Origin: Caulobacterales bacterium
GTDB lineage: Bacteria; Pseudomonadota; Alphaproteobacteria; Caulobacterales; Caulobacteraceae
Direction: 5' to 3'
Length of the DNA stretch: 64,000 bases
Assembly: GCA_947474395.1 (NCBI GenBank)
Contig: CANJID010000004.1
Span: forward strand, 1-64,000
The notes under the pieces were generated by a model that was given only the letters and a program-made list of their open reading frames with translations, was not told the DNA's origin and did not search any database. The number at the start of each line of letters is the position of its first letter. The first letter of the stretch is position 1. This document shows positions 43,233-61,193 of the stretch, piece after piece. The translations under genes and the position numbers were made by a program.

Positions 43233-44099
43233 TTACCGGGGATTGTCGTGGTGCGAGTCCGGCGCGTCCGACAGGGGGTCGACCATGTGGGCGATGTCCT
43301 GGTCGGCGCAGGGCTGGGCGTCGAACAGCTCCACATTCGTCAGGTTGAGCGTCCGCGACGGCAGAATCCACGGCTGGGTCAGGACCTCGGGGTCATCCAC
43401 GCGGGCCTGGTAGTCGATTCGGTCGCCCACGCGGGTCAGGCGCTCGGTCACCTTCATGTTGACGGTGTGGAAGGCGCCGTTGTCGGTGATCCAGGTGCTA
43501 TCGGCGATCTTGGTCGCCTCGATGACCAGGCTGTCGCCTTCCCAGTGGGCGATGGAGTCGCCCATCGGGCTTTCCTCGGCGTCGGCGCGGTGCTTGTCGC
43601 CGAAGTTGACGATGCGCCAGAAGCCGCCGGAGACGTCGTCGTAGAGCATGATCAGCTGCTTGTCGGTCTGCACGATCTTCTCGGGGGCGCCGATGCGCGG
43701 CAGGCCGGGATTGTGGCAGCGCAGGACCGGGTCCTCGAGCACCTGACGCTTGGTCAGGTCGGCGACCTTGGCCTGGTAGGCGGCCTTGTAGACCGGGCGG
43801 GCCGAGGCGGGCTGGGTGTTGCGCGGCGGGGCCGGAGTGGCCGGCCGGGTGGTCGCCGCGATCTGCTGGGGTCGTCCGCCCGGAGGGGCGGGGCAGCCCG
43901 CGACGCAGATCGAGCCGTCGGCGCTGCGCTGCGGGCGAAGGAAGCCGACGCCGCCGCCGTTGTCCCAGGTGCCGTTCAGGTCGGGGTGGCCCGCGGCGTT
44001 GCGCGGGGTGGGCTTGTTGTCCTGGGCGCTGGCGCCGGTGGCCACGACCAACGCCAGGATGGCGCCGGCGAAGAGACCGATTTTGGCATGGTTGGCCAT
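43233..44099 (-). CDS. Secreted WEGD-family protein, copy 4
   Basis: A 288-residue exported protein, signal peptide ending ASAQD. Features: DLNGTWDNGGG, CHNPGLPRIGAP, IVQTDKQLIMLYDDVSGGFWRIVNFG, HWEGDSLVIEATKI and VTERLTRVGDRIDYQARVDDPEVLTQPW. A Cys-rich SICVAGCPAPPGG stretch sits near residue 50. It lies 37 bases downstream of the DUF6152 gene, a pairing repeated at 58961-60294. Confidence 0.82.
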   Translation of the reverse strand: MANHAKIGLFAGAILALVVATGASAQDNKPTPRNAAGHPDLNGTWDNGGGVGFLRPQRSADGSICVAGCPAPPGGRPQQIAATTRPATPAPPRNTQPASARPVYKAAYQAKVADLTKRQVLEDPVLRCHNPGLPRIGAPEKIVQTDKQLIMLYDDVSGGFWRIVNFGDKHRADAEESPMGDSIAHWEGDSLVIEATKIADSTWITDNGAFHTVNMKVTERLTRVGDRIDYQARVDDPEVLTQPWILPSRTLNLTNVELFDAQPCADQDIAHMVDPLSDAPDSHHDNPR

Positions 44100-44136: not shown

Positions 44137-44526
44137 TTAGCGGTCGCCCGACAGCTGCAGGGTGCGGCCGTCGGAGAAGGTGATGATCTTGGCGAAGACG
44201 CGGCTCTGGTCGGTGCGACCCGGGAAGGCGGCGAGCTCGATCGGCTTGCCGCCGCCCATCATGATCTCCTTGGTGACCCCGGCCTTGCGGGCGAAGGCCA
44301 CGGGGACCGTCTCGACCAGGTACTTCTGGGTCTTGCCGCCGCCCTGATCCACGTCCAGGACGAAGTAGATGTGCGGGTTCACCCAATCGACCTTGGAGAC
44401 CACGCCCTTGAGCGTCACCAGCTTCTTGACGTCGAACTCCTGCGTCAGCCCGTGGTGGGCGAGGGCCGCCGAGGCCCCCAGCGTAAGGAGGGTGAAGGCC
44501 GCCAGGGCCGGAGCCAGTCGCTTCAT
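44137..44526 (-). CDS. DUF6152 family exported protein, copy 1
   Basis: A 129-residue protein whose signal peptide ends ALAHHG; the first mature residues HH are the family hallmark. VTLKGVVSKVDWVNPHIYFVLDVD follows, giving a small beta-barrel (OB-like). The HH pair with NPH may bind a metal. Upstream partner of the WEGD protein at 43233. Function unknown. Confidence 0.85.
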   Translation of the reverse strand: MKRLAPALAAFTLLTLGASAALAHHGLTQEFDVKKLVTLKGVVSKVDWVNPHIYFVLDVDQGGGKTQKYLVETVPVAFARKAGVTKEIMMGGGKPIELAAFPGRTDQSRVFAKIITFSDGRTLQLSGDR

Positions 44527-47051: not shown

Positions 47052-47120
47052 AACGGCAGTGAGGGGGCGAGTTTAGTCGGAACGCGGTTCAGTTGACGGA
47101 ACCGGCAAAATTGGACGTTG

Positions 47121-49190
47121 ATGGCGTTTATGGAACACCGTCGACGCCTGACCGCAGCGGCTCTTGCGGCCGCCCTCCTGCTTGGCGGCCTCGCCGCCGC
47201 TCCGAGCGCGCCAGCCGCGACGCCCGTCCCGACGGAGGCCCAGCTCGCGAAGCTGGAAGCCGAGGTGATCGCGGGCGAGGACCTCAGCGCTCTAAAGCGC
47301 CTGCAGCGCGCCTACGGCTACTATGTCAGCAAGGGGCTGTGGGAGGACGTGGCCGACCTCTTCACCGACGATGGGGTGGGCCACTACCCGGACGGGACCT
47401 ACGTTGGGAAGACGTCTCTGCGGCTGATGTTCCTTCAGAACGAGGGACAGGGGAAACTCGGCCTGGGCGAAGGGCGCCTGAAGGATCACATGATCCTGCA
47501 GCCGGTGGTCCACCTCGACACCGACGGCAGGACGGCCCGGGGACGCTGGCGCCTGATCAGCATGAACGGCCGCCTCGGCGGCGAGACCAACTGGCAGGGC
47601 GGCGTCTACGAGAACGTCTATGTGAAGGAGGGCGGGGTCTGGAAAATATCCGTCCTGCGCTTCCTGCCGTCCTTCTCCGGCGCCTATGAGAACGGCTGGT
47701 CAGGGCAGGCCCCGCCAGCCGGCACGCCCTTCGCCGTTCCGCCCGGGAAGCTGACGCCGCTCGCCCATCCGCACGCCCCCGACCGGCCGATCGACGGCTG
47801 CCGCGGCTATCCGGCCGCCTGCTCCTCCGAGTTCCACTACGCCAACGCCGGCTCGGCCGCCTTCCAGGTCTGGCACTCCGATCTTCTGCCGGCCCCGCCC
47901 GCCGCCAAGGTCCACGGCCCCGCCCGGCTGGCCAACCTCGCGACGCGCACCGCGCGGCTGAAGGACGAGCAGGAGCTCGAGAACCTGCTGAAGATCTACG
48001 CCTACTACCTCGACCGCGGCCGCTGGGATCAGGCCGGCGACCTGTTCGCCGCCGACGGAACCCTCGAGATCGGCCAGGCGGGGGTCTATGTCGGGCCCGC
48101 CCGCATCAAGGCCTACCTGGGCCTCGACGGCCCGCTCGGCCTGCGCGAAGGCCAGCTCAACGACCGCATGATGCTGCAGCCGATCGTGATGGTGGCCAAG
48201 GACGGCCTGACCGCCCGGGGCTACAGCCGCGAATGGTCCTGGCTCGGGGAGACCACCACCAAGACCGGGAGCTGGGAGGAGGGGACCTACGAGACCGTCT
48301 TCGCCAAGCAGGGTGGGATCTGGCGCATCCAGTCGATGCACCTCTATTCCAACTCGGCCTACGACTATGACAAGGGCTGGGGCAAGGACGCCAAGCCGGC
48401 GCGGGGGCCGAGCGCGACCCTGCCGGCCGATCGCCCGCCGACGGTGGTCTACGCCTCCTACCCCAAGCAGATCATCGCCCCGTTCCCCTTCAACAATCCG
48501 GTGACCGGCAAGGCGCCGCGCTATCCGTCCGGCGTGGTGATGGGCAAGCTGGAGGCCGCGCCGAAGCTGTCCGAGGCGCAGGCCCAACCGGCGACCTATG
48601 AGGAGGTCGCCACCGCCGCCGAGCGGGTGAAGGACCGCCACGCGATCGAGAACCTGCAGGACGCCTACGGCCACTATGCCGACAAGGGCCATTGGGTGGA
48701 GATGACCCGGACGCTCGGCAAGCCCATGACCATCGAGCTCGCCCTGCGCGGGGTCTATGTGGGCCGCGAGAGCGTCGCCAACTTCCTGCTCAATGTGTTC
48801 GGCCGCAATCCGGGGCCCCAGCCCAACAGCCTCGGCGATCACATGTCGCTGCAGCCGGTGGTCAACATCGCCCCCGACGGCAAGAGCGCCACCATGCGGG
48901 CCCGCGCCATCCAGGTGCTGGGCGCCTGGGGCCGCAGCGCCACCTGGGGCGGCGCCATCTACGACAATGCGGCGGTCAAGGAGGACGGGGTCTGGCGGAT
49001 GTCCAAGATCCACGCCTACAACACCTTCACCGCGACCTATCACGAGGGCTGGTTCCGGGGTCAGCCGCGCGGCCTGCCGGGCCCGAGCGCGCAGATCCCC
49101 CCCGATCGGCCGCCGAGCGAGCCGCTCAAGCCCCTGCCGACGGTCTATCCGATCCCCTTCCAGTACAAGAACCCGGTGACGGGGCGGTAG
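47121..49190 (+). CDS. Exported protein with three SnoaL-like domains, copy 1
   Basis: A 689-residue protein with a signal peptide ending APAAT. Three SnoaL-like domains lie at about 55-195, 284-421 and 507-644. Each has an [AG]YYxxxGxW helix, a YVG loop, an LQP[VI][VI] strand and a GxYEN-like or GxYDN-like strand. Domain 2 ends in NPVTGK and domain 3 in NPVTGR, the same tail as the neighbours. A linker with two Cys (CRGYPAAC) follows domain 1. ATG 47121 or 47130. Function unknown; probable periplasmic chaperone, binder or isomerase. Confidence 0.85.
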   Translation: MAFMEHRRRLTAAALAAALLLGGLAAAPSAPAATPVPTEAQLAKLEAEVIAGEDLSALKRLQRAYGYYVSKGLWEDVADLFTDDGVGHYPDGTYVGKTSLRLMFLQNEGQGKLGLGEGRLKDHMILQPVVHLDTDGRTARGRWRLISMNGRLGGETNWQGGVYENVYVKEGGVWKISVLRFLPSFSGAYENGWSGQAPPAGTPFAVPPGKLTPLAHPHAPDRPIDGCRGYPAACSSEFHYANAGSAAFQVWHSDLLPAPPAAKVHGPARLANLATRTARLKDEQELENLLKIYAYYLDRGRWDQAGDLFAADGTLEIGQAGVYVGPARIKAYLGLDGPLGLREGQLNDRMMLQPIVMVAKDGLTARGYSREWSWLGETTTKTGSWEEGTYETVFAKQGGIWRIQSMHLYSNSAYDYDKGWGKDAKPARGPSATLPADRPPTVVYASYPKQIIAPFPFNNPVTGKAPRYPSGVVMGKLEAAPKLSEAQAQPATYEEVATAAERVKDRHAIENLQDAYGHYADKGHWVEMTRTLGKPMTIELALRGVYVGRESVANFLLNVFGRNPGPQPNSLGDHMSLQPVVNIAPDGKSATMRARAIQVLGAWGRSATWGGAIYDNAAVKEDGVWRMSKIHAYNTFTATYHEGWFRGQPRGLPGPSAQIPPDRPPSEPLKPLPTVYPIPFQYKNPVTGR

Positions 49191-49191
49191 G

Positions 49192-51273
49192 ATGGTGGTC
49201 GGGGAGCGTCATCGACGCCTGACCGTCGCGGCGCTCTCCGCCGCCCTCCTGTTCGGCGGCATGGCCGTGGCCTCCAGCGCGCCCGCCGCGGCGCCGGTCC
49301 CCTCCGAAGCCCAGCTCGAAAAGCTCGAAGCCGAGGTCGTGGCGGGCGAGGACGTCGCCGCCATCAAGAAGCTGAACCGAACCTACGGCTACTACACCGA
49401 CAAGGGCCTGTGGGAGGACCTCGCCGACCTCTTCGCCGACGACGCGGTGGGCTACTACCCGGACGGGACCTATGTCGGCAAAGCCTCCCTGCGGCTGCTG
49501 TTCCTGCAGAACATCGGGCAGGGCAAGCTCGGGCTCGGCGACGGGCGGATGTACAACCACATGGTCCTGCAGCCGGTGGTCCACCTCGATCCGGGCGGGA
49601 TGACCGCCAAGGGCCGCTGGCGGGTGCTCGCCCATCTGGGGCGTCTCGGCGGCGCGGCCACCTGGGCCGGCGGCGTCTATGAGAACACCTACGTGAAGCA
49701 GGGCGGGGTCTGGAAGATCGCCACCCTGCGCTACCTGCCCGTCTTCTCCGGCCCCTACGACTCGAGCTGGTCGCGGATTCCCCCACCGGCCGGGACCCCC
49801 GTCCCGCCGCCGCCCGCGGTGGCTTCGGCCGGCGCCGCCGCCCCGGCCCACGCCCCCGACCGTCCGGCCGACCCCAACGCCTGCCGAGGCTATCCCGCCG
49901 CCTGCCCGGCCGGGTTCCACTATCCCAACGCCGGCTCGCCCGAGTTCGCGGTCTGGAATTCGGCCACGCTGCCGACCCCGCCCGCCACCAAGCTGGCCGG
50001 CAATTTCCTGCTGAGGTCCCTGGCGGCGCGGACCGAGCGGCTGGCCGACGAACAGTCCCTCGAGAACATGCTGCGGATGTACGGCTACTACCTCGACCGC
50101 GGCCGCTGGGACCAGGCGGCCGACCTGTTCGCCGCGGACGGGACCTTCGAGATCGGCCAGGCAGGGGTCTATGTCGGCCCGGCCCGCATCCGGGCCTATC
50201 TCGGGCTGGAGGGGCCCATCGGTCTGCGCGACGGCCAGCTCAACGACCGCATGGAGCTGCAGACGATTGTGACGGTCGCGCCGGACGGGCTGACGGCCCG
50301 GGGCTACAGCCGCGAATGGGCCTGGCTCGGCGACATCGCCACCAAGACCGGCAGCTGGGCGGAGGGGACCCGCGAGACCCTGTTCGTGAAGCAGGGCGGG
50401 GTCTGGCGCATCAAGGCGATGCACCTCTATTCCAACGCCGCCTACGACTACGACAAGGGCTGGGGCAAGGACGCCAAGCCCGCGCCGGGGCCGAGCGCGA
50501 CCCTGCCGGCCGATCGCCCGCCGACGGTGGTTTACGCCTCCTACCCGAAGGAGATCATCGCCCCGTTCCCCTATCCCAATCCCGTGACGGGCAAGGCGCC
50601 GCGCTATCCGGCGAGCGCCGTGATCGGCAAGCTGGAGGCCGCGCCGAAGTTGCCCGAGGCGCGCCGGGCGCCGGCCAGCTTCGCGGAGGTCAGCCTGGCG
50701 GCGGAGCGGGTGAAGGACCACCACGCGGTGGAAAACCTGCAGTCGGCCTACGGCTACTATGTGGACAAGGGCTACTGGGACGACCTGACCCGCATCATGT
50801 CGAAGAACTCGACCTATGAGCTCGCCCAGCGCGGGGTCTATGTCGGCTACGACAGTGTGCGGAACTTCCTGCTCAAGGTGTTCGGGACCAACCCGGGGCC
50901 GCAGCCCAACAGCCTCGGCGAGCACATGTCGCTCCAGCCGGTGGTGCTCATCGCGCCCGACGGCAAGTCCGCCGACATGCGGGTCCGCGCCATCCAGGTG
51001 CTGGGCGCCTGGAACCGCACCGCCACCTGGGGCGGGGCGATCTATGTGAACAAGGCGGTCAAGGAGGACGGGGTCTGGAAGCTGTCACAGGTGCACGCCT
51101 ACAACACCTTCACCGCCGCCTATCTGGACGGCTGGTTCCGCGGGCCGAGCCGTCCCCTGCCTGGGCCCAGCGCCACCACCCCGCCGGACCGGCCGCCCAG
51201 CGAGGTTCTGAAGGTCCTGCCGACTGTCTATCCGATCCCCTTCGCCTATAAGAACCCGGTGACAGGACGGTGA
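49192..51273 (+). CDS. Exported protein with three SnoaL-like domains, copy 2
   Basis: A 693-residue tandem duplicate of the preceding protein, starting one base after its stop. Domain order, Cys linker (CRGYPAAC), the central PPTVVYASYPKEIIAPFP and the NPVTGR end are all shared. Domain 1 differs most, while domains 2 and 3 are closely conserved. Probably the two products form a complex or act on related ligands. Confidence 0.85.
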   Translation: MVVGERHRRLTVAALSAALLFGGMAVASSAPAAAPVPSEAQLEKLEAEVVAGEDVAAIKKLNRTYGYYTDKGLWEDLADLFADDAVGYYPDGTYVGKASLRLLFLQNIGQGKLGLGDGRMYNHMVLQPVVHLDPGGMTAKGRWRVLAHLGRLGGAATWAGGVYENTYVKQGGVWKIATLRYLPVFSGPYDSSWSRIPPPAGTPVPPPPAVASAGAAAPAHAPDRPADPNACRGYPAACPAGFHYPNAGSPEFAVWNSATLPTPPATKLAGNFLLRSLAARTERLADEQSLENMLRMYGYYLDRGRWDQAADLFAADGTFEIGQAGVYVGPARIRAYLGLEGPIGLRDGQLNDRMELQTIVTVAPDGLTARGYSREWAWLGDIATKTGSWAEGTRETLFVKQGGVWRIKAMHLYSNAAYDYDKGWGKDAKPAPGPSATLPADRPPTVVYASYPKEIIAPFPYPNPVTGKAPRYPASAVIGKLEAAPKLPEARRAPASFAEVSLAAERVKDHHAVENLQSAYGYYVDKGYWDDLTRIMSKNSTYELAQRGVYVGYDSVRNFLLKVFGTNPGPQPNSLGEHMSLQPVVLIAPDGKSADMRVRAIQVLGAWNRTATWGGAIYVNKAVKEDGVWKLSQVHAYNTFTAAYLDGWFRGPSRPLPGPSATTPPDRPPSEVLKVLPTVYPIPFAYKNPVTGR

Positions 51274-51280
51274 GGCGGTC

Positions 51281-51982
51281 ATGAAGCTTCGACACGCGCT
51301 GCTCAGCCTGGCCCTCGCGGCCCTCGCCCTGCCGGCGCAGGCTGCTGACGCATCCACTGCCCAGAACTCGGCCAAGACCATAGCCGCCCTGAAGACGCGG
51401 ATCGCCGCCCTTCGCCTGGAGGTGGCCCGCGCCAAGGCTTACGATCAGGTCGAGAACCTGTTCGATATCTTTGGCTACTACGTCGACAAGAACCAGTTCG
51501 CCCAGGAAGCCGACCTCTGGGCCCGCAAGGGCACGATGGAGATGGCGCAGCGGGGGGTCTACGTCGGCCAGGACAGCGTGCGCCGCTTCCACGCCGCCGA
51601 CCGGGAAGGCCCGAACGTCAACCGGCTACTCGACCACCCGATGCTGGGGCAGGTGATCCACGTTTCGCCGGACGGCAAGTCGGCCAAGGTCCGCGCCCGC
51701 ATGTGGCAGATGATGGGCGGCCCCGGCGCCCGCGCCACCCTGGGCGGGGGCGTCTACGAGAACGAGGCGATCCTGGAAGACGGGGTCTGGAAGATCCAGT
51801 CCGAGCACACCTACAACACCTACGTCGCCGGCTACGATGGCGGCCCGGCCACCTCTTCACCGACCATGCCGGGCCCGAACCCGAACGTGCCGCCCGACCT
51901 GCCAACGACCGTCAAGTTCGAGGGCTTCCCCAAGGTCTACGACATCCCCATCCACTATAAGAACCCGGTCAGCGGGCGCTGA
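51281..51982 (+). CDS. Exported single SnoaL-like domain protein
   Basis: A 233-residue protein with signal peptide ending AQAAD and one domain matching the third domain of the two large neighbours: VENLFDIFGYYVDKNQF, GVYVGQDSVRRF, GGGVYENEAILEDGVWKIQ. It ends YDIPIHYKNPVSGR, the same tail. It begins seven bases after the second large gene, so the three form one operon. A 4-residue variant of the LQPV motif (LGQVIHV) is present. Confidence 0.85.
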   Translation: MKLRHALLSLALAALALPAQAADASTAQNSAKTIAALKTRIAALRLEVARAKAYDQVENLFDIFGYYVDKNQFAQEADLWARKGTMEMAQRGVYVGQDSVRRFHAADREGPNVNRLLDHPMLGQVIHVSPDGKSAKVRARMWQMMGGPGARATLGGGVYENEAILEDGVWKIQSEHTYNTYVAGYDGGPATSSPTMPGPNPNVPPDLPTTVKFEGFPKVYDIPIHYKNPVSGR

Positions 51983-52025
51983 CCGGCGTCCCATCCACTA
52001 CAGCAATGCCCTGACCGGGCGTTGA
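51983..52025 (+). pseudogene. Remnant of a SnoaL-protein 3' end
   Basis: Immediately after the stop of the one-domain gene, a frame reads IHYSNALTGR then stop, mirroring IHYKNPVSGR of the preceding gene. It has no upstream gene body. It is most simply the surviving tail of another, deleted tandem copy. Confidence 0.6.
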
Positions 52026-52061: not shown

Positions 52062-52109
52062 TAGCAACAAACTTAACGCCTTCCCTCTAGGGAGAGCGTC
52101 AAGTTGCTA
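52062..52109. promoter_or_regulatory. Long stem-loop in the TonB receptor leader
   Basis: TAGCAAC (52062-52068) pairs with GTTGCTA (52103-52109); inside, TTAACGC and GCGTCAA continue the stem after a four-base bulge, and CCCT/AGGG closes it. It ends 18 bases before ATG 52128. It may terminate the SnoaL operon or regulate receptor expression. The in-frame TTG at 52104 falls inside the hairpin, so ATG 52128 is the better start. Confidence 0.6.
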
Positions 52110-52127
52110 TTCGCAGGGGATACAAGG

Positions 52128-54587
52128 ATGCCGAGTAACTATGGGAAGCGTCGGACGATGGTGGTCCGGCTGGCCGGAACGTCGTTGACCGCCCTGGCCT
52201 TGTGCCTCGCCACCGGCGTCGCCGCGCGGGCGCAAGTCGCCGAGGAAGCGACGGTCCCGGAAGTCACCGTCACCGCCCAGTTCCGCGACCAGGCGCTCCA
52301 GTCGACGCCGCTCGCCATCACCGCCGTCAGCGGCGCGATGATCCAGGCTCGGGGCCAGATCAACGTCATCGATCTCGCCGAACAGGCGCCCAACGTCACC
52401 CTGAAGCCGGGCGCCTCGCCTTACGGTCCGTCGCTGCAGGCCTTCATCCGAGGCATCGGCCAGACCGACTTCAACTACGCCTTCGAGCCGGGCGTCGGCC
52501 TCTATGTGGACGATGTCTACTATTCGACCCTGCCGGGCTCGATGCTCGACCTGCTCGATCTCGACCGGGTGGAGATCCTGCGCGGGCCGCAAGGCACGCT
52601 CGCGGGCCAGAACGCCATCGGCGGGGCCATCAAGCTCTATTCGAAGAAGCCGAACGGGCAGGGCGGCGGGTTCCTGGAAGCGGGCGGCGGAAGCCTCAGC
52701 CGCGTGGGCGTTCGCGGCGCGGCCGACTTCACCGTGGTCCCCGACAAGCTGTTCGCCCGGGTGTCGGGCGCCTTCCACCGGCAGGACGGCTACGTCACGC
52801 GCTACGACTACGGCTGCACCCATCCGGGCTCCGGCGCGCCGGCCACGACCACCGGCGGCTGCAAGCTGGGGACCGAGGGCGGCAAGTCCTATGAGGCGGT
52901 CCGTCTGGCCCTGCGCTGGACCCCGACGCCGACGTTCGAGGCCAACCTCGCCTTCGACTACACCCACGACGATTCCGAGGTCTCGCCGATGACCCTGGTC
53001 TATGTCGGCCATACCCCCAGCGCGGCCCTGGCCTGCCCCGGCGGCGCGGGCATCTGCCCGTTCCCGGCGTCGGGCCGCACGGCGCGGCTGCAGTACGGCG
53101 GGATCGCCTTCGGCGGCCCGGCCGGCTCGCCCTTCGTCAGCTATTCGCCGTTCGGCCCGGGCAATGCGGCGGACAGCTTCAGCCGCAGCCCCTACGCCAG
53201 CTATTCCACCTACGCCGACCCGAACCCGCTCTCCGGCGCGCCCGCCTACGCCCTCTCCGACAAGAGCGGCGTCAGCGGCGGGGGCCTGTCCCTCTCGGGC
53301 CGCTACAAGATCACTGACGATGTCTCGCTGACCTCGATCACGGCCTACCGCTACTACGACGGCGGCTGGTCGATCGACCAGGACGGGACCCCGGCGGGCG
53401 CGGCGACCGTGCGCAACACCGTCTGGCACCGCCAGCTCAGCCAGGAACTGCGCCTGAACGGCCGGCTGGCCGGGGCGGTGGATTACACTCTCGGCGGTTT
53501 CTACCTCGACCAGACCAGCCACTATGGCGGGCGGATCGACTTCCCCACCGTCGGCCTCGACTTCATCGAGAACGACCGCATCCCGGAGACCACCTGGGCC
53601 CTGTTCGGCACGGCGGACTGGTCGGTGACCGAGCGGCTGCACCTGATCGGCGGGCTGCGCTACACCGACGTGGACAAGAGCTTCACCTACGGCCGCCTCG
53701 GCGTGCCGGGCAACCTCGCCTTCGCGGGCGGCCCGCCCCCGAGCGTGGCGCCGCTGAACAACCTGACCAGCACCTTCAAGGGCGAGCGGCCCGACTGGCG
53801 CGCGGCCGTGCAGTACCAGTGGACGCCGGCCGTCATGACCTACGGCCAGGTCTCCACCGGCTTCAAGGGCGGCGGCATCAACCCGCGCCCGTTCTTCCCG
53901 GCCCAGGCCCTGCCGCATAATCCCGAGACCCTGACCGCCTACGAGGTCGGGCTGAAGAGCCGTTGGCTGGAGAACCGGCTGCAGCTGAACCTGGCCGCCT
54001 TCTGGAACCGCTACGACGACATCCTGGTCAGCGTGAACGCCTGCCCGCTGCCGGGCGCACCCGCAGCGCCCTGCTCCCTGCCGGTCAATGCGGGCAAGGC
54101 CAATATCAAGGGCTTCGAGGCCGAAGCCGTGTTCCGCCCGACGTCGCGCCTGTCCTTCGACGCCTCGCTCAGCACCCTGGACTTCGAGTACCGCACCCTC
54201 TCGGCCGCGGCCCTGGCGTCGGGCCTGAATCTGGGCATGACCGCGCCCTTCGCCCCGGACTGGAAAGCGAGCCTCGGCGCGCAATACGCCTTCGACATCG
54301 GCCGCTGGGGATCGCTGACCCCGCGCCTCGACGTCAGCCACCAGTCGAGCTTCAACGCCGCGGCGCTGAACACGCCCTTCAGCCAGGTGCCGTCCTACAC
54401 CCTGGCCAACGCGCGCCTGACCTGGAGCGACAGGAACGGCCTCTGGCAGGCCACGGCGGAGGTCACCAACCTGGGCGACGAGCTCTACTATTCGAGCCTG
54501 TTCGACAACCGGGGTCTGACCCAGACGGTGTTCGGCGTCCCAGCCGCGCCGCGCGAATGGTTCGTCAAGCTGCGCCGTAACTTCTAG
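52128..54587 (+). CDS. TonB-dependent outer-membrane receptor
   Basis: An 819-residue receptor. Signal peptide ends ARAQV; the following EVTVTAQ resembles a TonB box. The plug domain has INVIDLAEQAPNVTL, RGIGQTDFN, YVDDVYYS and DRVEILRGPQGTLAGQNAIGG. The barrel ends WFVKLRRNF with a terminal Phe as in outer-membrane barrels. It imports a large or hydrophobic substrate using energy from TonB/ExbBD. It lies between the SnoaL operon and the PQQ dehydrogenase. Confidence 0.93.
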   Translation: MPSNYGKRRTMVVRLAGTSLTALALCLATGVAARAQVAEEATVPEVTVTAQFRDQALQSTPLAITAVSGAMIQARGQINVIDLAEQAPNVTLKPGASPYGPSLQAFIRGIGQTDFNYAFEPGVGLYVDDVYYSTLPGSMLDLLDLDRVEILRGPQGTLAGQNAIGGAIKLYSKKPNGQGGGFLEAGGGSLSRVGVRGAADFTVVPDKLFARVSGAFHRQDGYVTRYDYGCTHPGSGAPATTTGGCKLGTEGGKSYEAVRLALRWTPTPTFEANLAFDYTHDDSEVSPMTLVYVGHTPSAALACPGGAGICPFPASGRTARLQYGGIAFGGPAGSPFVSYSPFGPGNAADSFSRSPYASYSTYADPNPLSGAPAYALSDKSGVSGGGLSLSGRYKITDDVSLTSITAYRYYDGGWSIDQDGTPAGAATVRNTVWHRQLSQELRLNGRLAGAVDYTLGGFYLDQTSHYGGRIDFPTVGLDFIENDRIPETTWALFGTADWSVTERLHLIGGLRYTDVDKSFTYGRLGVPGNLAFAGGPPPSVAPLNNLTSTFKGERPDWRAAVQYQWTPAVMTYGQVSTGFKGGGINPRPFFPAQALPHNPETLTAYEVGLKSRWLENRLQLNLAAFWNRYDDILVSVNACPLPGAPAAPCSLPVNAGKANIKGFEAEAVFRPTSRLSFDASLSTLDFEYRTLSAAALASGLNLGMTAPFAPDWKASLGAQYAFDIGRWGSLTPRLDVSHQSSFNAAALNTPFSQVPSYTLANARLTWSDRNGLWQATAEVTNLGDELYYSSLFDNRGLTQTVFGVPAAPREWFVKLRRNF

Positions 54588-54682: not shown

Positions 54683-56470
54683 ATGCGCGCGCCGTTGCGT
54701 CGATCGACCACTGTCGCCCTCGTGGGCGCCGCCGCCGTGGCGGCCCTGCTGGGGGCCGCTTCGAGCGGTCAGGCGCAGGGCATGTTCCCGGCCGTGCCCG
54801 ACCCCTTCGCGCCCAAGGCGGTGGAGCGGGTGGACGCGCCGCTCGCCAAGCTCTCCGCCGTCACTCCGGCCATGCTGGAAAGCCCGCCGGCGAGCGACTG
54901 GCTGATGTGGCGGCGGACCTATGACGGCTACGGCTTCAGCCCGCTGGAGCAGATCAACAAGGCCAATGTCGCAAACCTGAAAGTCGCCTGGACCTGGTCC
55001 ATGGCCAACGGCCCGCAGCAGGGTACGCCTCTGGTCCACGACGGCGTGCTGTTCGTGCAGAGCAACGGCGACGGCGTCGAGGCCCTGAACGCGTCCAACG
55101 GCGACCTGCTCTGGCGCTACACGGCCCGCCTGCCGCGAGAGGTCGCGCCCAGCCAAAAGCGGATGATGGCGCTCGCCGGCGACAAGCTGCTGCTCGCCAC
55201 CTCCAACAAGCACATCGTCGCTCTCAACATGAAGACGGGAGCGGTGGAATGGGACCAGGCTGTGGCTGGGGAGGGCACCTTCACCTCCGGCCCCATGGTT
55301 GTGGACGACCGGGTGATCATCGGGGCGACCGGGTGCAACATGGGCCGGTGCTCCATCACCGGCCACGAGCTGGCGACCGGCAAGGAGGTCTGGCGCTTTT
55401 ACACCGTGGCGGGGCCTGGCGAGCCGGGGGGCGAGACCTGGAACGGCATCCCGCTCGACGAGCGCTATGGCGGCTCCTCCTGGACCTCGGGGAGCTACGA
55501 TCCCTCGACCAAGCTGCTCTACTGGGGCGTCGGCCAGCCCTATCCCTGGAACCCCTTCGCGCGGGGCACCAGTCCCCTGAAGCCGGGAAACAGCGACGAG
55601 GCCCTCTACACCGACAACACCCTGGCTCTCGATCCTCAGACCGGGAAACTGGTCTGGCACTACTCCCACCTGCCCAACGACAGCTGGGACATGGACTATG
55701 TGTTCGAGCGCACCCTGGTCGACGTGCCCGTGGACGGGAAGATGCGGCGCCTGACGGTCACCTCCGGCAAGCTCGGCATCATCGAGGGGGTCGACGCCAA
55801 GACCGGCCAGTTCGTCTTCGCCAAGGACATGGGCATCCAGAACATCGTCCAGTCCATCGACCCGGTGACGGGTAAGAAGACCATCAACCCGGCGGTGATC
55901 CCCGAGCTCAACAAGACCGTCACCATCTGCCCGCACCCGGGCGGCGGGCGCAGCGTCGGGGCCACGGCCTACGACCCGCGGACCAAGATCCTCTATCTGC
56001 CGCTGCAGGAGCACTGCACCGACATGACGCCGGGGCCGAAGGAGCCGGGGGAGAAGACGGCTCCCTCCAAGTTCGTGCTGAAGCTTTTCCCCGGCAGCGA
56101 CGGCAACCTCGGCCGGCTGGATGCGGTGAACCTCGCCACCCGCAAGAACGTCTGGACCCACCGCGAGCGCGCGCCCCAGTCCACCGGCTCCCTGCCGACC
56201 GCCGGCGGCGTGGTGTTCCAGGGCCAGCTCGACCGCTACTTCAAGGCCTATGACTCGGCCACCGGCAAGGAGCTGTGGAAGACGCGCCTGAACGACGTGC
56301 CGAACTCCGCGCCGATCAGCTTCAGCGTGGCGGGCAAGCAGTACATCGCCGTGACCACCGGCTCGGGCGGCCCCATGACCCGCACCTGGCTCTCCATGCT
56401 GCCGGAAATCCGCAACCCGCCCGCCTCCGGCGCTACGGTCTGGGTGTTCGAGCTGCCGGATCGTCGATGA
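54683..56470 (+). CDS. PQQ-dependent alcohol dehydrogenase
   Basis: A 595-residue periplasmic quinoprotein, signal peptide ending AQGMF. The eight-bladed propeller has W-motif strands such as ALNASNGDLLWRY, ALNMKTGAVEWDQ and ALDPQTGKLVWHY. Catalytic Asp336 is in NDSWDMD; Asp338 two residues on is where lanthanide-using enzymes have an extra Asp. The usual vicinal Cys pair is replaced by GCNMGRC, two Cys separated by four residues. Its stop overlaps the cytochrome c gene. It probably oxidises an alcohol imported by the receptor. Confidence 0.88.
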   Translation: MRAPLRRSTTVALVGAAAVAALLGAASSGQAQGMFPAVPDPFAPKAVERVDAPLAKLSAVTPAMLESPPASDWLMWRRTYDGYGFSPLEQINKANVANLKVAWTWSMANGPQQGTPLVHDGVLFVQSNGDGVEALNASNGDLLWRYTARLPREVAPSQKRMMALAGDKLLLATSNKHIVALNMKTGAVEWDQAVAGEGTFTSGPMVVDDRVIIGATGCNMGRCSITGHELATGKEVWRFYTVAGPGEPGGETWNGIPLDERYGGSSWTSGSYDPSTKLLYWGVGQPYPWNPFARGTSPLKPGNSDEALYTDNTLALDPQTGKLVWHYSHLPNDSWDMDYVFERTLVDVPVDGKMRRLTVTSGKLGIIEGVDAKTGQFVFAKDMGIQNIVQSIDPVTGKKTINPAVIPELNKTVTICPHPGGGRSVGATAYDPRTKILYLPLQEHCTDMTPGPKEPGEKTAPSKFVLKLFPGSDGNLGRLDAVNLATRKNVWTHRERAPQSTGSLPTAGGVVFQGQLDRYFKAYDSATGKELWKTRLNDVPNSAPISFSVAGKQYIAVTTGSGGPMTRTWLSMLPEIRNPPASGATVWVFELPDRR

Positions 56471-56967
56471 CGTCACCCAGTTCCGCTCATCCCGGCGAAA
56501 GCCGGGACCCCGGCGTTTTTGTTGTCTTAGGGCGCGGCGCTGTCGGGAAAAAAACCTGGGTCCCGGCTTTCGCCGGGATGAGCGGGATTATTTTAGCCCT
56601 GGTGGGGGGGCCATCTGCCCTGGCCCAGGACGAGGCGCCGGCGCATTTCACCGCGGCGCAGGCGTCGCGGGGGGCGGATGCGTATCGCGACCGCTGCGTG
56701 CTCTGCCATGGGGCGAACCTGGACGACGGGGAGTTCGGGCCGACGCTGAAGGGCGCGCGGTTCAAGCGCAAATGGGGCGGCCAAAGTCTGGCCGCGCTGT
56801 TCGCCTATGTCTCCACCACCATGCCCCCGGGCCAGACCTCGCTGATGGGTCCGGAGGACTATGCGGACGTGCTGGCGCATATACTGGCGGGCAACGGCGT
56901 CGCCGCCGGCGATACCCCCCTTCCGTCAAAGACGGAGGCCCTGGGGCCCCTGACGATGCCAAAGTGA
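56467..56967 (+). CDS. Cytochrome c with repeat-derived N-terminus
   Basis: A 166-residue protein with one CxxCH site (CVLCH), a conserved MPPGQTSLMG Met ligand region and a typical class I fold. Its first 37 residues come from a 31-bp inverted repeat inserted in frame: HPGESRDPG and WVPAFAGM are characteristic translations. Either ATG 56467 (overlapping the dehydrogenase stop) or ATG 56578 (giving signal peptide SGIILALVGGPSALAQ) may be used. It is the likely electron acceptor of the PQQ enzyme. Confidence 0.82.
   Translation: MTSPSSAHPGESRDPGVFVVLGRGAVGKKTWVPAFAGMSGIILALVGGPSALAQDEAPAHFTAAQASRGADAYRDRCVLCHGANLDDGEFGPTLKGARFKRKWGGQSLAALFAYVSTTMPPGQTSLMGPEDYADVLAHILAGNGVAAGDTPLPSKTEALGPLTMPK
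56483..56585. repeat. Inverted-repeat element inside the cytochrome c gene
   Basis: Left arm 56483-56513 and right arm 56555-56585 are 31-base inverted copies with one mismatch, separated by 41 bases. The arms carry CATCCCGGCGAAAGCCGGGA, a sequence common as a dispersed repeat in Caulobacterales and Sphingomonadales. The right end is also seen at 10196. Confidence 0.85.
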
Positions 56968-57006: not shown

Positions 57007-58497
57007 ATGGTCGATTTCTCAGGCCAGCGGCCGACGACCGGTTTCCACGCCCCGACGCGGTTCGAGGCGGACATCTACGACTGCGAGGTGGTGGGCCAGA
57101 TCCCCACCGACCTGAACGGCGGCTTCTTCCGCCTGCACCTCGACGCCTTCTACCCGTCGAAATACGCGGACGACGCGATCCTGGCCTACGACGGCTACGT
57201 CACCTCGTTCCGCTTCAGCAAGGGGGTCGTCGACTACAAGGGCCGCTACGTCCGCACCCAGCGCTTCATGAAGCAGCTCGAGGCGCGCAAGCAGCTCTAC
57301 GGCTACTACCGCAATCCGTACACGGATGATCCGTCCGTTTCCGACCCCGCCAATCCCCATCTGCGGACCACGGCCAACACCACGCCGGTGGTCCACCACG
57401 GCAAGCTGTTCGCCACCAAGGAGGATGGGCTACCGCACGTGATGGACCACAACACCCTGAAGACCGTGGGGCCGACCGACTTCGGCGGGACGTGGAACAG
57501 CCAGACCTTCACCGCCCACCCCAAGATCGATCCGGTCAGTGGCGAGATGGTCGCCATCGGCTACGAGGCCAGCGGCCTGGCGTCCAAGGACGTGCTGATG
57601 GGCACCTTCGACAAGACCGGCAAGCTCACCCAAGAGGTGCGCTTCGACGTGCCTTACGTCTCCATGCTGCACGACATGTGCGTGACCCAGAAGCACGTGG
57701 TCATCCCCGGCGGCGGGGCGATCGCGGACATCGAGACGCTGAAGGCGGGCAAGAGCCACTGGGGCTGGGACGCCAGCCTGCCGTCCTACTACGGGATCAT
57801 CCCCCGCGACGGGGAAGCCAAGGACATGCGCTGGTTCAAGGGCCCCGAGCGGGCGCTGGTGCACACGGTCAATGCGGTCACCGAGGGCGACAAGGTGATC
57901 ATGGAGGCCCCGGTGGTGGAGGGTAATCCCTGGCCCTGGTTCCACGACATCCACGGCGCCCCGTTCAAGCCGCTGGACTACACCATCCGCCGCTTCACCT
58001 TCGACCTGAACTCCAAGGACGACGGCTACACCGAGGAGATCCTGTTCAAGACGCCGGTGACCAGCTTCACCCGCATCGACGACCGGTTCATGACCCTGCC
58101 GTACCGCTACACCTATGTGCAGTATTCGGACCCCGAACGGCCCTTCGACGCGGCCCTGGCGGGCCCGTTCGGCGGGCGCACCGCCAACTCTTACGGCCGG
58201 TTCGACATCCGCACGGGGGAGACCCTGTCCTACTGCGCCGGACAGAGCCACGCGGTGCAGGAGCCGACCTTCGTGCCGCGGCCCGGATCGAGCGAGGAAG
58301 GCGATGGCTGGATTCTGGGAATCGCCCACAACCACGTGGAACGGCGCTCGGAGTTGATCATCCTCGACGCCCAGCGCATGGAGGAGGTGGCCCGGGTGGT
58401 CCTGCCCTTCCGCTGCAGCGGCCAGGTGCACGGGGTCTGGGCGGGGGAGGGCGACCTCGCCTTCGACGATCCCACCCAACTGGCCTTGGCGAACTAG
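57007..58497 (+). CDS. Carotenoid/lignostilbene-type dioxygenase
   Basis: A 496-residue carotenoid cleavage oxygenase-family enzyme. Four His that bind the non-haem iron are in FTAHPK (His171), MLHDMC (His222), VHTVNA (His286) and QVHGVW (His475), in the family order. It cleaves a C=C bond of a carotenoid or a stilbene-like aromatic. A role in lignin-derived or terpenoid catabolism is inferred from the neighbours. The AGxT/plug-like N-terminus has no signal peptide, so cytoplasmic. Confidence 0.92.
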   Translation: MVDFSGQRPTTGFHAPTRFEADIYDCEVVGQIPTDLNGGFFRLHLDAFYPSKYADDAILAYDGYVTSFRFSKGVVDYKGRYVRTQRFMKQLEARKQLYGYYRNPYTDDPSVSDPANPHLRTTANTTPVVHHGKLFATKEDGLPHVMDHNTLKTVGPTDFGGTWNSQTFTAHPKIDPVSGEMVAIGYEASGLASKDVLMGTFDKTGKLTQEVRFDVPYVSMLHDMCVTQKHVVIPGGGAIADIETLKAGKSHWGWDASLPSYYGIIPRDGEAKDMRWFKGPERALVHTVNAVTEGDKVIMEAPVVEGNPWPWFHDIHGAPFKPLDYTIRRFTFDLNSKDDGYTEEILFKTPVTSFTRIDDRFMTLPYRYTYVQYSDPERPFDAALAGPFGGRTANSYGRFDIRTGETLSYCAGQSHAVQEPTFVPRPGSSEEGDGWILGIAHNHVERRSELIILDAQRMEEVARVVLPFRCSGQVHGVWAGEGDLAFDDPTQLALAN

Positions 58498-58960: not shown

Positions 58961-59371
58961 CTACTGCCCGACCTGCAGCTTGGTCGGGTTGTTCGAGATC
59001 AGGACCCCGTCCGCCAGGGTGATGTCGATCAGGCCGCCGCCGTGTCGTCCGTCCCGCAAGGGATGGGCTCGGATGGTGATCTTGTCCCCGGGCCTTAAGC
59101 GCTCCGGGGTCACCCCTTGCGCCTTCATGCGCGATGCCGTGCCGCCCTCGATGTCCCAGCGCACCATCTTGGTGGCGTCCTCGGCGGAGGGGACCAGCAG
59201 GGAGATCCAGGCGTGGGGCGCCACGAACTGGTACTCCAGCAGGGTTCCCTTCAGGGTAAGGGTCTTGGCGCGGTCGAACATGGCGCCGGAGTGGTGCGCC
59301 AGCGCCGGTCCCGCGACCAGGGCGACGGCGATAGCGATCGGGGTCGTCAGGCCCGCGAGCGTGCGCTTCAT
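58961..59371 (-). CDS. DUF6152 family exported protein, copy 2
   Basis: A 136-residue protein whose signal peptide ends ALAHHSG, with TLTLKGTLLEYQFVAPHAWISLLV following, matching the relative at 44137. Its ATG overlaps the WEGD-family stop at 59368 by four bases. A periplasmic beta-barrel with the HH pair; function unknown. Confidence 0.85.
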   Translation of the reverse strand: MKRTLAGLTTPIAIAVALVAGPALAHHSGAMFDRAKTLTLKGTLLEYQFVAPHAWISLLVPSAEDATKMVRWDIEGGTASRMKAQGVTPERLRPGDKITIRAHPLRDGRHGGGLIDITLADGVLISNNPTKLQVGQ

Positions 59372-60294
59372 TTTCCGGCCTCCTTCTTTTCCTGAGCTTC
59401 GCGTTCGCCGGGCAGCACCAGGGTCTGGTAGCCGTCCTTCATCTCGCTGTTGTTGTCCGGCGAGCAGGTGTCGTCCTTGACGACGGGGTACTTGGTCGGC
59501 GCGCGCCGGAACCAGCGGGTCACCTGCCAGGGTTTGGTGAAGGCCACCGGGTCCACCATCGTCATCGCGTCTTCCAGCCAATCCTTGTCGACGAGGCGGA
59601 TGCGTTCGGTCACGCGCAGCTGGTCCGAATGGGGCGCGCCGGTCTGGTCGTAGTTGGAGGGGTAGGTGCCGATGGTGTCGGCGACCAGGGTATCGCCCTC
59701 CCAGTGGCCGATGGAGTGGCCGTTCCAGCGGGGTTCCACGTCGCGCTCGAAGCCCTCGCCCTTCGGATGGCCCCGCCCGTCGGTGTAGATGTGGCGGATG
59801 GCGCTGCCGGCGTCGAAGTACATCAGGACGAATTCGGGGGTGACGACGATCTCGGGGCCGCTGGGATTGCCTCCCATCACCCGCGGGAACCCGTAGGGCC
59901 AGCAGACGGAAACCCGGTCGGTGTTCTTGCCCTCGAGGTTGTCGGCGATGATCTTGTCGTACTTGGCCTTCCATTCGGCGTTGTAGGGGATCGAGGTCAT
60001 GTAGGTTCCCTCGATCAGGCCGACGAGGCCGGCGCCTTCCTCCTCGGCAGGGTCGGGGGGCGAGACGAAATTGATCTGGTCGAAGCTGATCTCGGCGGGG
60101 CGCGGCTTTGCCCCGCTGGTGGGAATCCAGCGCCCGTTCCAGTCCGGCAGCTTTTGCAGGGCCGCGGTGTAGCCGGCGCTGATCTTTGGCGACTTGAAGC
60201 CGGGGGCGGGGAGCTTTCGCCCGTCGGCCGGCTGGGCGGCGGCGACGGTCGCGGCGGCCGCAACGGCCAGCGCCAGCGTTAGCGTTCGGATCAT
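59368..60294 (-). CDS. Secreted WEGD-family protein, copy 5
   Basis: A 308-residue exported protein with signal peptide ending VAAAQ. Features: DWNGRWIPTSG, CWPYGFPRVMGG, VVTPEFVLMYFDAGSAIRHIYTDG, HSIGHWEGDTLVADTIGT and HSDQLRVTERIRLVDKDWLEDAMTMVDPVAFTKPW. GGAGG lies upstream of ATG 60294. It overlaps the DUF6152 gene, and its own start is 30 bases past the 60324 gene's stop. Confidence 0.83.
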   Translation of the reverse strand: MIRTLTLALAVAAAATVAAAQPADGRKLPAPGFKSPKISAGYTAALQKLPDWNGRWIPTSGAKPRPAEISFDQINFVSPPDPAEEEGAGLVGLIEGTYMTSIPYNAEWKAKYDKIIADNLEGKNTDRVSVCWPYGFPRVMGGNPSGPEIVVTPEFVLMYFDAGSAIRHIYTDGRGHPKGEGFERDVEPRWNGHSIGHWEGDTLVADTIGTYPSNYDQTGAPHSDQLRVTERIRLVDKDWLEDAMTMVDPVAFTKPWQVTRWFRRAPTKYPVVKDDTCSPDNNSEMKDGYQTLVLPGEREAQEKKEAGK

Positions 60295-60323
60295 GGCGGT
60301 TCCTCCGTCGCCGGCTTCGCCGG

Positions 60324-61193
60324 TCATTGCTTGAAGCCCGAGTCCGGGGGCCAGGCGGACGAGTTGCCGAACTCCTCGAAGGAGCGGATGCGGCCGTCGA
60401 CGACCTTAAGGATTTCGCACTCGTAAGTCGCGTCAGGCCGGTCCTTGTAGGCGTTGGGCATCAGGAAGCTGACGACCACGATCCCTCGCTCCACATCGAC
60501 GATCGGAAAGCGCCGGCCGACGGGGGACCCCGCGCGGACGCCGTCGAAGCTGGTCAGGCAGGAGCCGACGCCGTCGGGCCCGTTGTTGGTGACCTTGCCG
60601 CCCAGGTAATATTTGTCGCAGCGGTAGCCGAGCGGGACGCCGGCGCTCGAATGGGCGCCGATGCCGTCGAGATAGAGGCCGGCGATGCGGATCAGCTCGG
60701 CGCGGGTGGAGCGGCGCGCGGCCGGAACGACCGCCTCGTAGAGGATGTCCGGATAGAGCAGCTCCTCAGGATGGAAATAGCGCCCCGGGGTGGTGTTCCA
60801 GGCGATCTCGCTCTCAACCACGACCCGGTTCTTCAGGCGGATGCGCAGGAGCAGCGGGGTCAGCCCGCCGTCTCGGCGCTCGAACACCCCGGCGAAGACG
60901 GCGTTGCCGGTCACCGGATCGGCGAATCGATAGCCGGCGCGAACCCGCTTCAGCGTCTTCCACACCCCCGCGTCCGGCCGGGTCGCCAGGGTGTTCTCGC
61001 GGGTCTCGGCGCCTTTCGAGAGGGCAAGGGCGGTGAAATCCTGGGCGGCGGCGCGATCGATGTAGCGGTCGAGGGCGGTCATCAGACAGCCGCGATCACA
61101 GCCGGCGACAGCGGCCGGCGCGGAGGCGGCGGCGACGACCATAGCCGTCGCCAGGACGCCCCCCAGCGCCCACACCGCCCGCAACCTACGCAT
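60324..61193 (-). CDS. Exported protein (DUF8021-like)
   Basis: A 289-residue exported protein, signal peptide ending AAVAG, beginning with CDRGCLMTALDRYIDRAAAQDFTALALSKGAETREN, which resembles the SnoaL-related DUF8021 fold. Cys pairs (CDRGC, RCDKYY, SCLTSF and YECEIL) suggest disulfides. It leads the leftward operon with copy 5 WEGD and DUF6152, and diverges from the TetR gene. Function unknown. Confidence 0.78.
   Translation of the reverse strand: MRRLRAVWALGGVLATAMVVAAASAPAAVAGCDRGCLMTALDRYIDRAAAQDFTALALSKGAETRENTLATRPDAGVWKTLKRVRAGYRFADPVTGNAVFAGVFERRDGGLTPLLLRIRLKNRVVVESEIAWNTTPGRYFHPEELLYPDILYEAVVPAARRSTRAELIRIAGLYLDGIGAHSSAGVPLGYRCDKYYLGGKVTNNGPDGVGSCLTSFDGVRAGSPVGRRFPIVDVERGIVVVSFLMPNAYKDRPDATYECEILKVVDGRIRSFEEFGNSSAWPPDSGFKQ

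Follow-up and report, generated by a model that had tools for sequence, protein, structure and literature searches.

The closest described systems to the proteins reported here are the gamma-formaldehyde lyases LdpA (NaLdpA and SpLdpA; PDB 8abt, 8abu, 8abv and 8abw) and PcfL, which take formaldehyde off lignin dimers to give stilbenes that lignostilbene dioxygenases then cleave, LdpA acting by way of a quinone methide formed by dehydration (PMC12997858, PMC11323797). LdpA has the SnoaL/NTF2 fold in one domain of about 250 amino acids and carries a C-terminal tail. It is a cofactor-free, cytoplasmic enzyme. The dehydratase BaiE, which acts on steroids and also has a SnoaL-type fold, crystallises as a trimer (PMC13101464). 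A precedent for related domains occurring either separate or joined comes from the polyether epoxide hydrolases, in which MonBI and MonBII are separate in one pathway, while Lsd19A and Lsd19B are joined in another as the two-domain Lsd19; MonBI alone is inactive, yet it boosts MonBII (PMC8827043).

Here, we describe a locus in a window of 64,000 nucleotides from a Caulobacterales bacterium whose genome (3.58 Mb, 103 contigs) contains 42 SnoaL_4, 21 PQQ-propeller and 6 RPE65 matches. The array proteins share with LdpA and PcfL the SnoaL/NTF2 fold, and with LdpA 35-36% identity in structural alignment, a related C-terminal tail and, in at least some pockets, the His97, Asp40, Arg116, Tyr147 and Trp158 positions, while a relative of their pathway partner, a lignostilbene-dioxygenase type enzyme, is encoded in the same operon. 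Unlike LdpA, the two large proteins are predicted exported chains with three divergent domains each, some of whose pockets are degenerate, and the array is tied to a PQQ dehydrogenase. Since these chains are not single-domain proteins and the activity is putative, we do not name the array a formaldehyde lyase and describe it only as working like one. BaiE differs from the array in its distant sequence (E = 0.004), single domain, homomeric assembly and steroid substrate, and Lsd19 and MonBI/MonBII in having two domains of another NTF2-fold subfamily, serving polyether biosynthesis outside any PQQ operon. The iota-carbonic anhydrase 7c5y, a weak Foldseek match, is a long chain that matches over several NTF2-fold domains but belongs to another family with other chemistry. 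Thus, the initial annotation, which knew of no characterised protein of this architecture, holds for three-domain SnoaL_4 proteins, of which we found none in the literature searched, but tandem NTF2-fold enzymes do exist (Lsd19, 7c5y). The same search returned no description of tandem or exported SnoaL proteins or of SnoaL proteins with PQQ or TonB partners, and no link of type II quinohemoprotein alcohol dehydrogenases to SnoaL subunits.

The SnoaL array and its operon

The array consists of three genes followed by a short relic:

47121-49190, + strand: protein A, predicted exported, 689 amino acids, three SnoaL_4 domains (types 1-2-3)
47229-47711, + strand: A domain 1 (type 1), His at the LdpA His97 position, Ser at the Asp40 position
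47913-48392, + strand: A domain 2 (type 2), His97 position lost to Arg, Asp40 kept, NPVTGK after the domain
48582-49064, + strand: A domain 3 (type 3), His97 and Asp40 kept, NPVTGR after the domain
49192-51273, + strand: protein B, predicted exported, 693 amino acids, three SnoaL_4 domains
49300-49782, + strand: B domain 1 (type 1), His97 and Asp40 kept
49999-50475, + strand: B domain 2 (type 2), His97 position lost to Arg
50665-51147, + strand: B domain 3 (type 3), His97 and Asp40 kept
51281-51982, + strand: protein C, predicted exported, 233 amino acids, one SnoaL_4 domain (type 3), NPVSGR end
51984-52025, + strand: relic of a C-terminal tail, an out-of-frame second copy, RRPIHYSNALTGR*, directly after C

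Protein A starts at 47118 (TTG) or 47121 (ATG) and ends at 49190, giving 690 or 689 amino acids. SnoaL_4 (PF13577, cut-off 24 bits) matches three stretches of A (E = 9.7e-73, 242.6 bits), three of B (E = 2e-68, 228.6 bits) and one of C (E = 7e-23, 81.4 bits), and each domain taken singly also passes the Pfam cut-off; AlphaFold and Foldseek agree on the fold, which bears out the three, three and one SnoaL domains originally proposed for 47121-51982. NCBIfam gave no family name for A, B or C. A and B are tandem copies that are 73% identical, and the spacing is 1 bp between A and B and 7 bp between B and C. The N-termini of all three proteins, judged by eye and hydropathy only, are hydrophobic and fit for export, from which we infer that the array proteins are exported and share a compartment with the PQQ enzyme described below.

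The tail motifs were present as first reported, with NPVTGK closing domain 2, NPVTGR closing domain 3 and NPVSGR closing C, and the tail of domain 1 has decayed to HYANAG or HYPNAG. The genes lie where the initial annotation placed them, but the array extends past the end given there, into the relic at 51984-52025. The relic pattern occurs only there and in the tail of C itself, and in none of 100 shuffles, which suggests a remnant of a further SnoaL unit lost by recombination. In the domain tree, C groups with gene 3 of an unfused cassette from the same genome, which makes C a type 3 unit and the order of the array 123-123-3, with the relic tail of one more unit behind it.

All genes from A through the dioxygenase lie on one strand, with the following genes downstream of the array:

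52104-54587, + strand: TonB-dependent outer-membrane receptor (PF00593, E = 1.3e-46; PF07715, E = 2.7e-16)
54683-56470, + strand: predicted PQQ-dependent and exported alcohol dehydrogenase, without a fused haem domain (PF01011, E = 3.7e-59)
56467-56967, + strand: c-type cytochrome (PF13442, E = 7.3e-09)
57007-58497, + strand: lignostilbene-alpha,beta-dioxygenase relative of the RPE65 family, no evident signal peptide (PF03055, E = 2.3e-109)

The best solved relatives of the PQQ dehydrogenase are the sorbose dehydrogenase 4mh1 and ADH-IIG (22vi), and it scores 396.6 bits against TIGR03075, under the cut-off of 480. Its gene overlaps the cytochrome c gene by 4 bp. The 57007-58497 product, by sequence similarity, is a relative of lignostilbene dioxygenase (closest among solved structures: LSD isozyme I, 6ojr, E = 9.8e-113); we do not call it the same enzyme because its 485 bits against the NCBIfam equivalog LigStilDioxAlpha fall well under the cut-off of 800. 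The alignment with 6ojr shows conservation of a Tyr (in YRNP) and a Lys (in KED) that we take to be Tyr101 and Lys134 of the LsdA work, and Phe59 is replaced by Leu.

Elsewhere in the window, a DUF6152 gene (44137-44526) lies beside an exported protein without a Pfam family (43233-44099), and a reading frame on the - strand (58961-59974), DUF6152 by weak similarity, lies beside another exported protein without a Pfam family (59368-60327). Similar pairs occur again in loci L013 and L017.

Domain types and unfused counterparts

Contig C4 of the host genome holds, at about 89-91.5 kb, three separate SnoaL genes that correspond in turn to domains 1, 2 and 3, each with its own exported-type N-terminus and NPVTG[RK] tail, and a second set, in the order 1-3-2, lies on contig C19. 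Such unfused relatives within one genome, ending in the same tails, support the idea that each domain is a former gene whose stop was lost. Frameshift artefacts were ruled out as the source of the separate genes, which each have their own signal-like N-terminus and stop and recur in many genomes. Separate SnoaL genes often overlap by 4 bp.

On a tree built from 124 domains, each of the three types needs 3 label changes, compared to 25-27 in shuffles, and by this grouping the array domains are three ancient paralogue types set by position. Internal triplication, as first suggested, was ruled out because domains group by position across proteins; each chain instead links three old paralogues in a row. 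The array domains and LdpA form one clade apart from 22 other SnoaL_4 domains of the genome (100% SH-aLRT), and the placement of LdpA next to type 1 has weaker support (92%, quick tree). A tree of end-to-end joined trios, a quick tree like the domain tree, places the window pair with unfused sets, a 2+1 set (L031, the single such intermediate found) and an Acidobacteria fused protein, while 22 other fused proteins stand apart. Branches with strong support in this tree require two or more switches between the fused and unfused states, so that, as read from the tree, joining or splitting of the three paralogues occurred at least twice.

Of 299 genomes in the host's own family, 8 had matches over the 1e-60 threshold, as did 2 of 385 across the class (own genome counted in both) and 19 of 250 in a Sphingomonadales family, where three-gene unfused sets are widespread. 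Records from Acidobacteria, Gammaproteobacteria and Rhizobiales contain fused forms too, and a plasmid search returned single-domain relatives only. Two of these (L085, 9004-9762, and L086, 8527-9768), LdpA-like genes carried by large plasmids in Sphingobium sp. V4 and Novosphingobium sp. RL4, keep the LdpA His97, Asp40, Arg116, Trp142 and Tyr147 positions and adjoin ALDH and lignostilbene-dioxygenase-relative genes. Separately, the Acidobacteria three-domain protein (L049, 4151-6130) has a lipobox-like N-terminus (LASSC) and domains that group in an unusual order. The host genome encodes two more three-domain SnoaL proteins (L012, 6785-8812; L013, 6967-9171) whose RRRFLL-type N-termini hint at Tat export and which lack a complete NPVTGR ending; the gene for one of them adjoins LigB, ALDH and MetE-like genes.

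Gene neighbourhoods and the PQQ dehydrogenase

We surveyed the neighbours of 22 array loci from 14 genomes, with about 323 kb of flank. By simple Poisson estimates on uneven flanks, TonB receptors were enriched (11 of 22 loci compared to 3.3 expected, P = 0.0006; P = 0.0014 without the window), in support of the link to such a receptor proposed at first, and PQQ dehydrogenases were found at 5 of 22 loci compared to 1.07 expected (P = 0.005; P = 0.019 without the window). Lignostilbene-dioxygenase relatives occurred at 2 of 22 loci compared to 0.25 expected (P = 0.026), which was not significant without the window (P = 0.21).

Unfused cassettes were then fetched by SnoaL profile alone, and 15 of the 16 were new. 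In all 16, a PQQ dehydrogenase gene lies directly downstream of the three SnoaL genes on the same strand, with overlapping junctions or gaps of at most 6 bp save for two (39 and 125 bp); operon linkage to the PQQ dehydrogenase is invariant in the unfused cassettes examined, which supports the link proposed in the first reading. An exported SMP-30/NHL-like propeller gene lies just upstream in 10 of 16. The dehydrogenase of the cassettes belongs to the type II quinohemoproteins and carries a fused cytochrome domain (closest solved relative 1kv9, E = 4e-203), whereas the window enzyme differs from 1kv9 and 1yiq in having a separate cytochrome instead of a fused haem domain. At L098, L099, L100, L107 and L110, a second PQQ dehydrogenase gene, transcribed divergently, lies just upstream of the NHL-SnoaL-PQQ cassette.

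Could this neighbourhood be chance, with a lineage-specific SnoaL expansion having no functional tie to the TonB, PQQ and dioxygenase genes? The family is greatly expanded in this genome, and arrays L013, L030 and L063 lack such neighbours within the stretch examined, but the tight PQQ junctions throughout the unfused cassettes, together with three SnoaL genes that stay together on one strand, make coincidence highly improbable.

Other neighbours point to aromatic catabolism. A fused LigB-LigA ring-cleavage dioxygenase gene (L061, 6566-7852) sits 71 bp away from a pair of SnoaL genes with three domains each, LigB occurs in L012, and fused arrays of the large clade neighbour Amidohydro_2, TonB, ALDH, BKACE and Fe-ADH genes. 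An RPE65-family gene is also present at the 2+1 locus, and lignostilbene dioxygenase is absent from the cassettes examined except near L105; given this and its presence at only 2 of 22 array loci, a stilbene step may be special to the window operon.

Predicted pockets and proposed function

AlphaFold models of A (pLDDT 83.1, pTM 0.88) and of a Rhizobiales relative that is about 30% identical (pLDDT 84.7, pTM 0.87) gave similarly high pTM in two distant lineages, so that the three barrels are predicted to pack against one another in a definite arrangement and A, judged from pTM only, to have trimer-like geometry. With Foldseek, the seven best PDB matches of A were LdpA structures with a product analogue or substrate dimer (resveratrol or DGPD) bound, followed by the BaiE bile-acid dehydratases and LinA, and MonBI-MonBII (9kw6) was also among the matches.

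This ranking bears on the substrate. The same assembly in the same compartment could instead act on steroids, terpenoids, plant polyphenols or other alcohols, as a BaiE-like dehydratase or isomerase with a PQQ alcohol dehydrogenase, and the BaiE and LinA matches, the several kinds of alcohol oxidised by relatives of the PQQ enzyme and the lack of a neighbouring lignostilbene dioxygenase in most cassettes fit such a role. We consider this unlikely, though well worth keeping in view, since LdpA is clearly closer than BaiE by structure (E = 1e-13 compared to 2.5e-7) and by sequence (4e-28 compared to 0.004), and the lignostilbene-dioxygenase relative and the LigAB, LigB and Amidohydro_2 neighbours point to aromatics.

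We used as reference His97 of LdpA, the residue changed to Gln in 8abu, which was solved with erythro-DGPD, and Asp40, which we take to be equivalent to the catalytic Asp of BaiE. The His97 position is His in domains 1 and 3 of A and B and in C, and Arg in both second domains. In the cassettes, it is Trp in subunit 1 (15/15) and His in subunits 2 and 3 (15/15), which keep both the Asp40 and His97 equivalents in 15/15. In the large fused clade, His97 is gone from domain 1 but retained in 29/31 of domain 3, and Asp40 is kept in most type 2 and type 3 domains. This pattern of His97 loss indicates that one pocket in three is usually degenerate and that which one differs by lineage. Since they lack the His97 equivalent, pocket 2 of A and B and pocket 1 of most relatives would be non-catalytic, and probably only some pockets are catalytic while these bind substrate or support assembly.

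A loss of this kind in nearly all lineages, together with the TonB enrichment, would also suit a periplasmic carrier or chaperone whose barrels pass hydrophobic aromatics from the receptor to the dehydrogenase without catalysis. However, at least one pocket, and usually two, retains both the Asp40 and His97 equivalents, which is unexpected for a pure carrier, and we regard this role as quite improbable.

On balance, we lean toward a reading of the array as LdpA-like lyase/dehydratase domains joined into a covalent heterotrimer that works in the periplasm, together with the PQQ dehydrogenase, on lignin-type aromatic dimers. Points against it are the cytoplasmic location of LdpA, the pockets without LdpA residues, and the rarity and low NCBIfam score of the dioxygenase relative. 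The early suggestion that it may bind or isomerise a hydrophobic substrate proved too vague, as lyase/dehydratase chemistry on aromatic dimers is made more likely by LdpA being the nearest solved relative and by the lignostilbene-dioxygenase relative in the operon. In the mechanism we propose, the TonB receptor would admit a lignin-type aromatic dimer, and the PQQ dehydrogenase with its cytochrome c would oxidise the dimer's alcohol, or the aldehyde released. Three LdpA-like paralogues, separate subunits in relatives, are fused head to tail in A and B, so that a single chain supplies all three distinct barrels of a trimer-like set; from this fusion, the separate subunits presumably form a complex as well. 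The assembly would carry out a cofactor-free elimination, with water and formaldehyde lost as in LdpA and PcfL, to give a stilbene-like product that would pass to the cytoplasm and be cut there by the lignostilbene-dioxygenase relative, the product of the operon's final gene.

More tentatively, and as a possibility to which we give less than even credence, the family may comprise a previously undescribed system in which an obligate heterotrimer of two catalytic and one degenerate SnoaL subunits, together with a quinohemoprotein alcohol dehydrogenase, couples PQQ oxidation to extracytoplasmic, cofactor-free C-C or C-O cleavage of aromatic oligomers and has repeatedly been fused into single-chain pseudo-trimers.

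A review of lignin-dimer pathways does not mention the periplasm, and strain SYK-6 has 62 NTF2-superfamily homologues, most of unknown role (PMC12997858). A conserved operon joining an exported SnoaL trio with a PQQ dehydrogenase would offer a testable role for one group of such homologues and would locate part of the breakdown of aromatic dimers beyond the cytoplasm. The 1+1+1, 2+1 and 3 arrangements would form a natural series from a presumed heteromeric enzyme to a single chain in which one active site is decaying.
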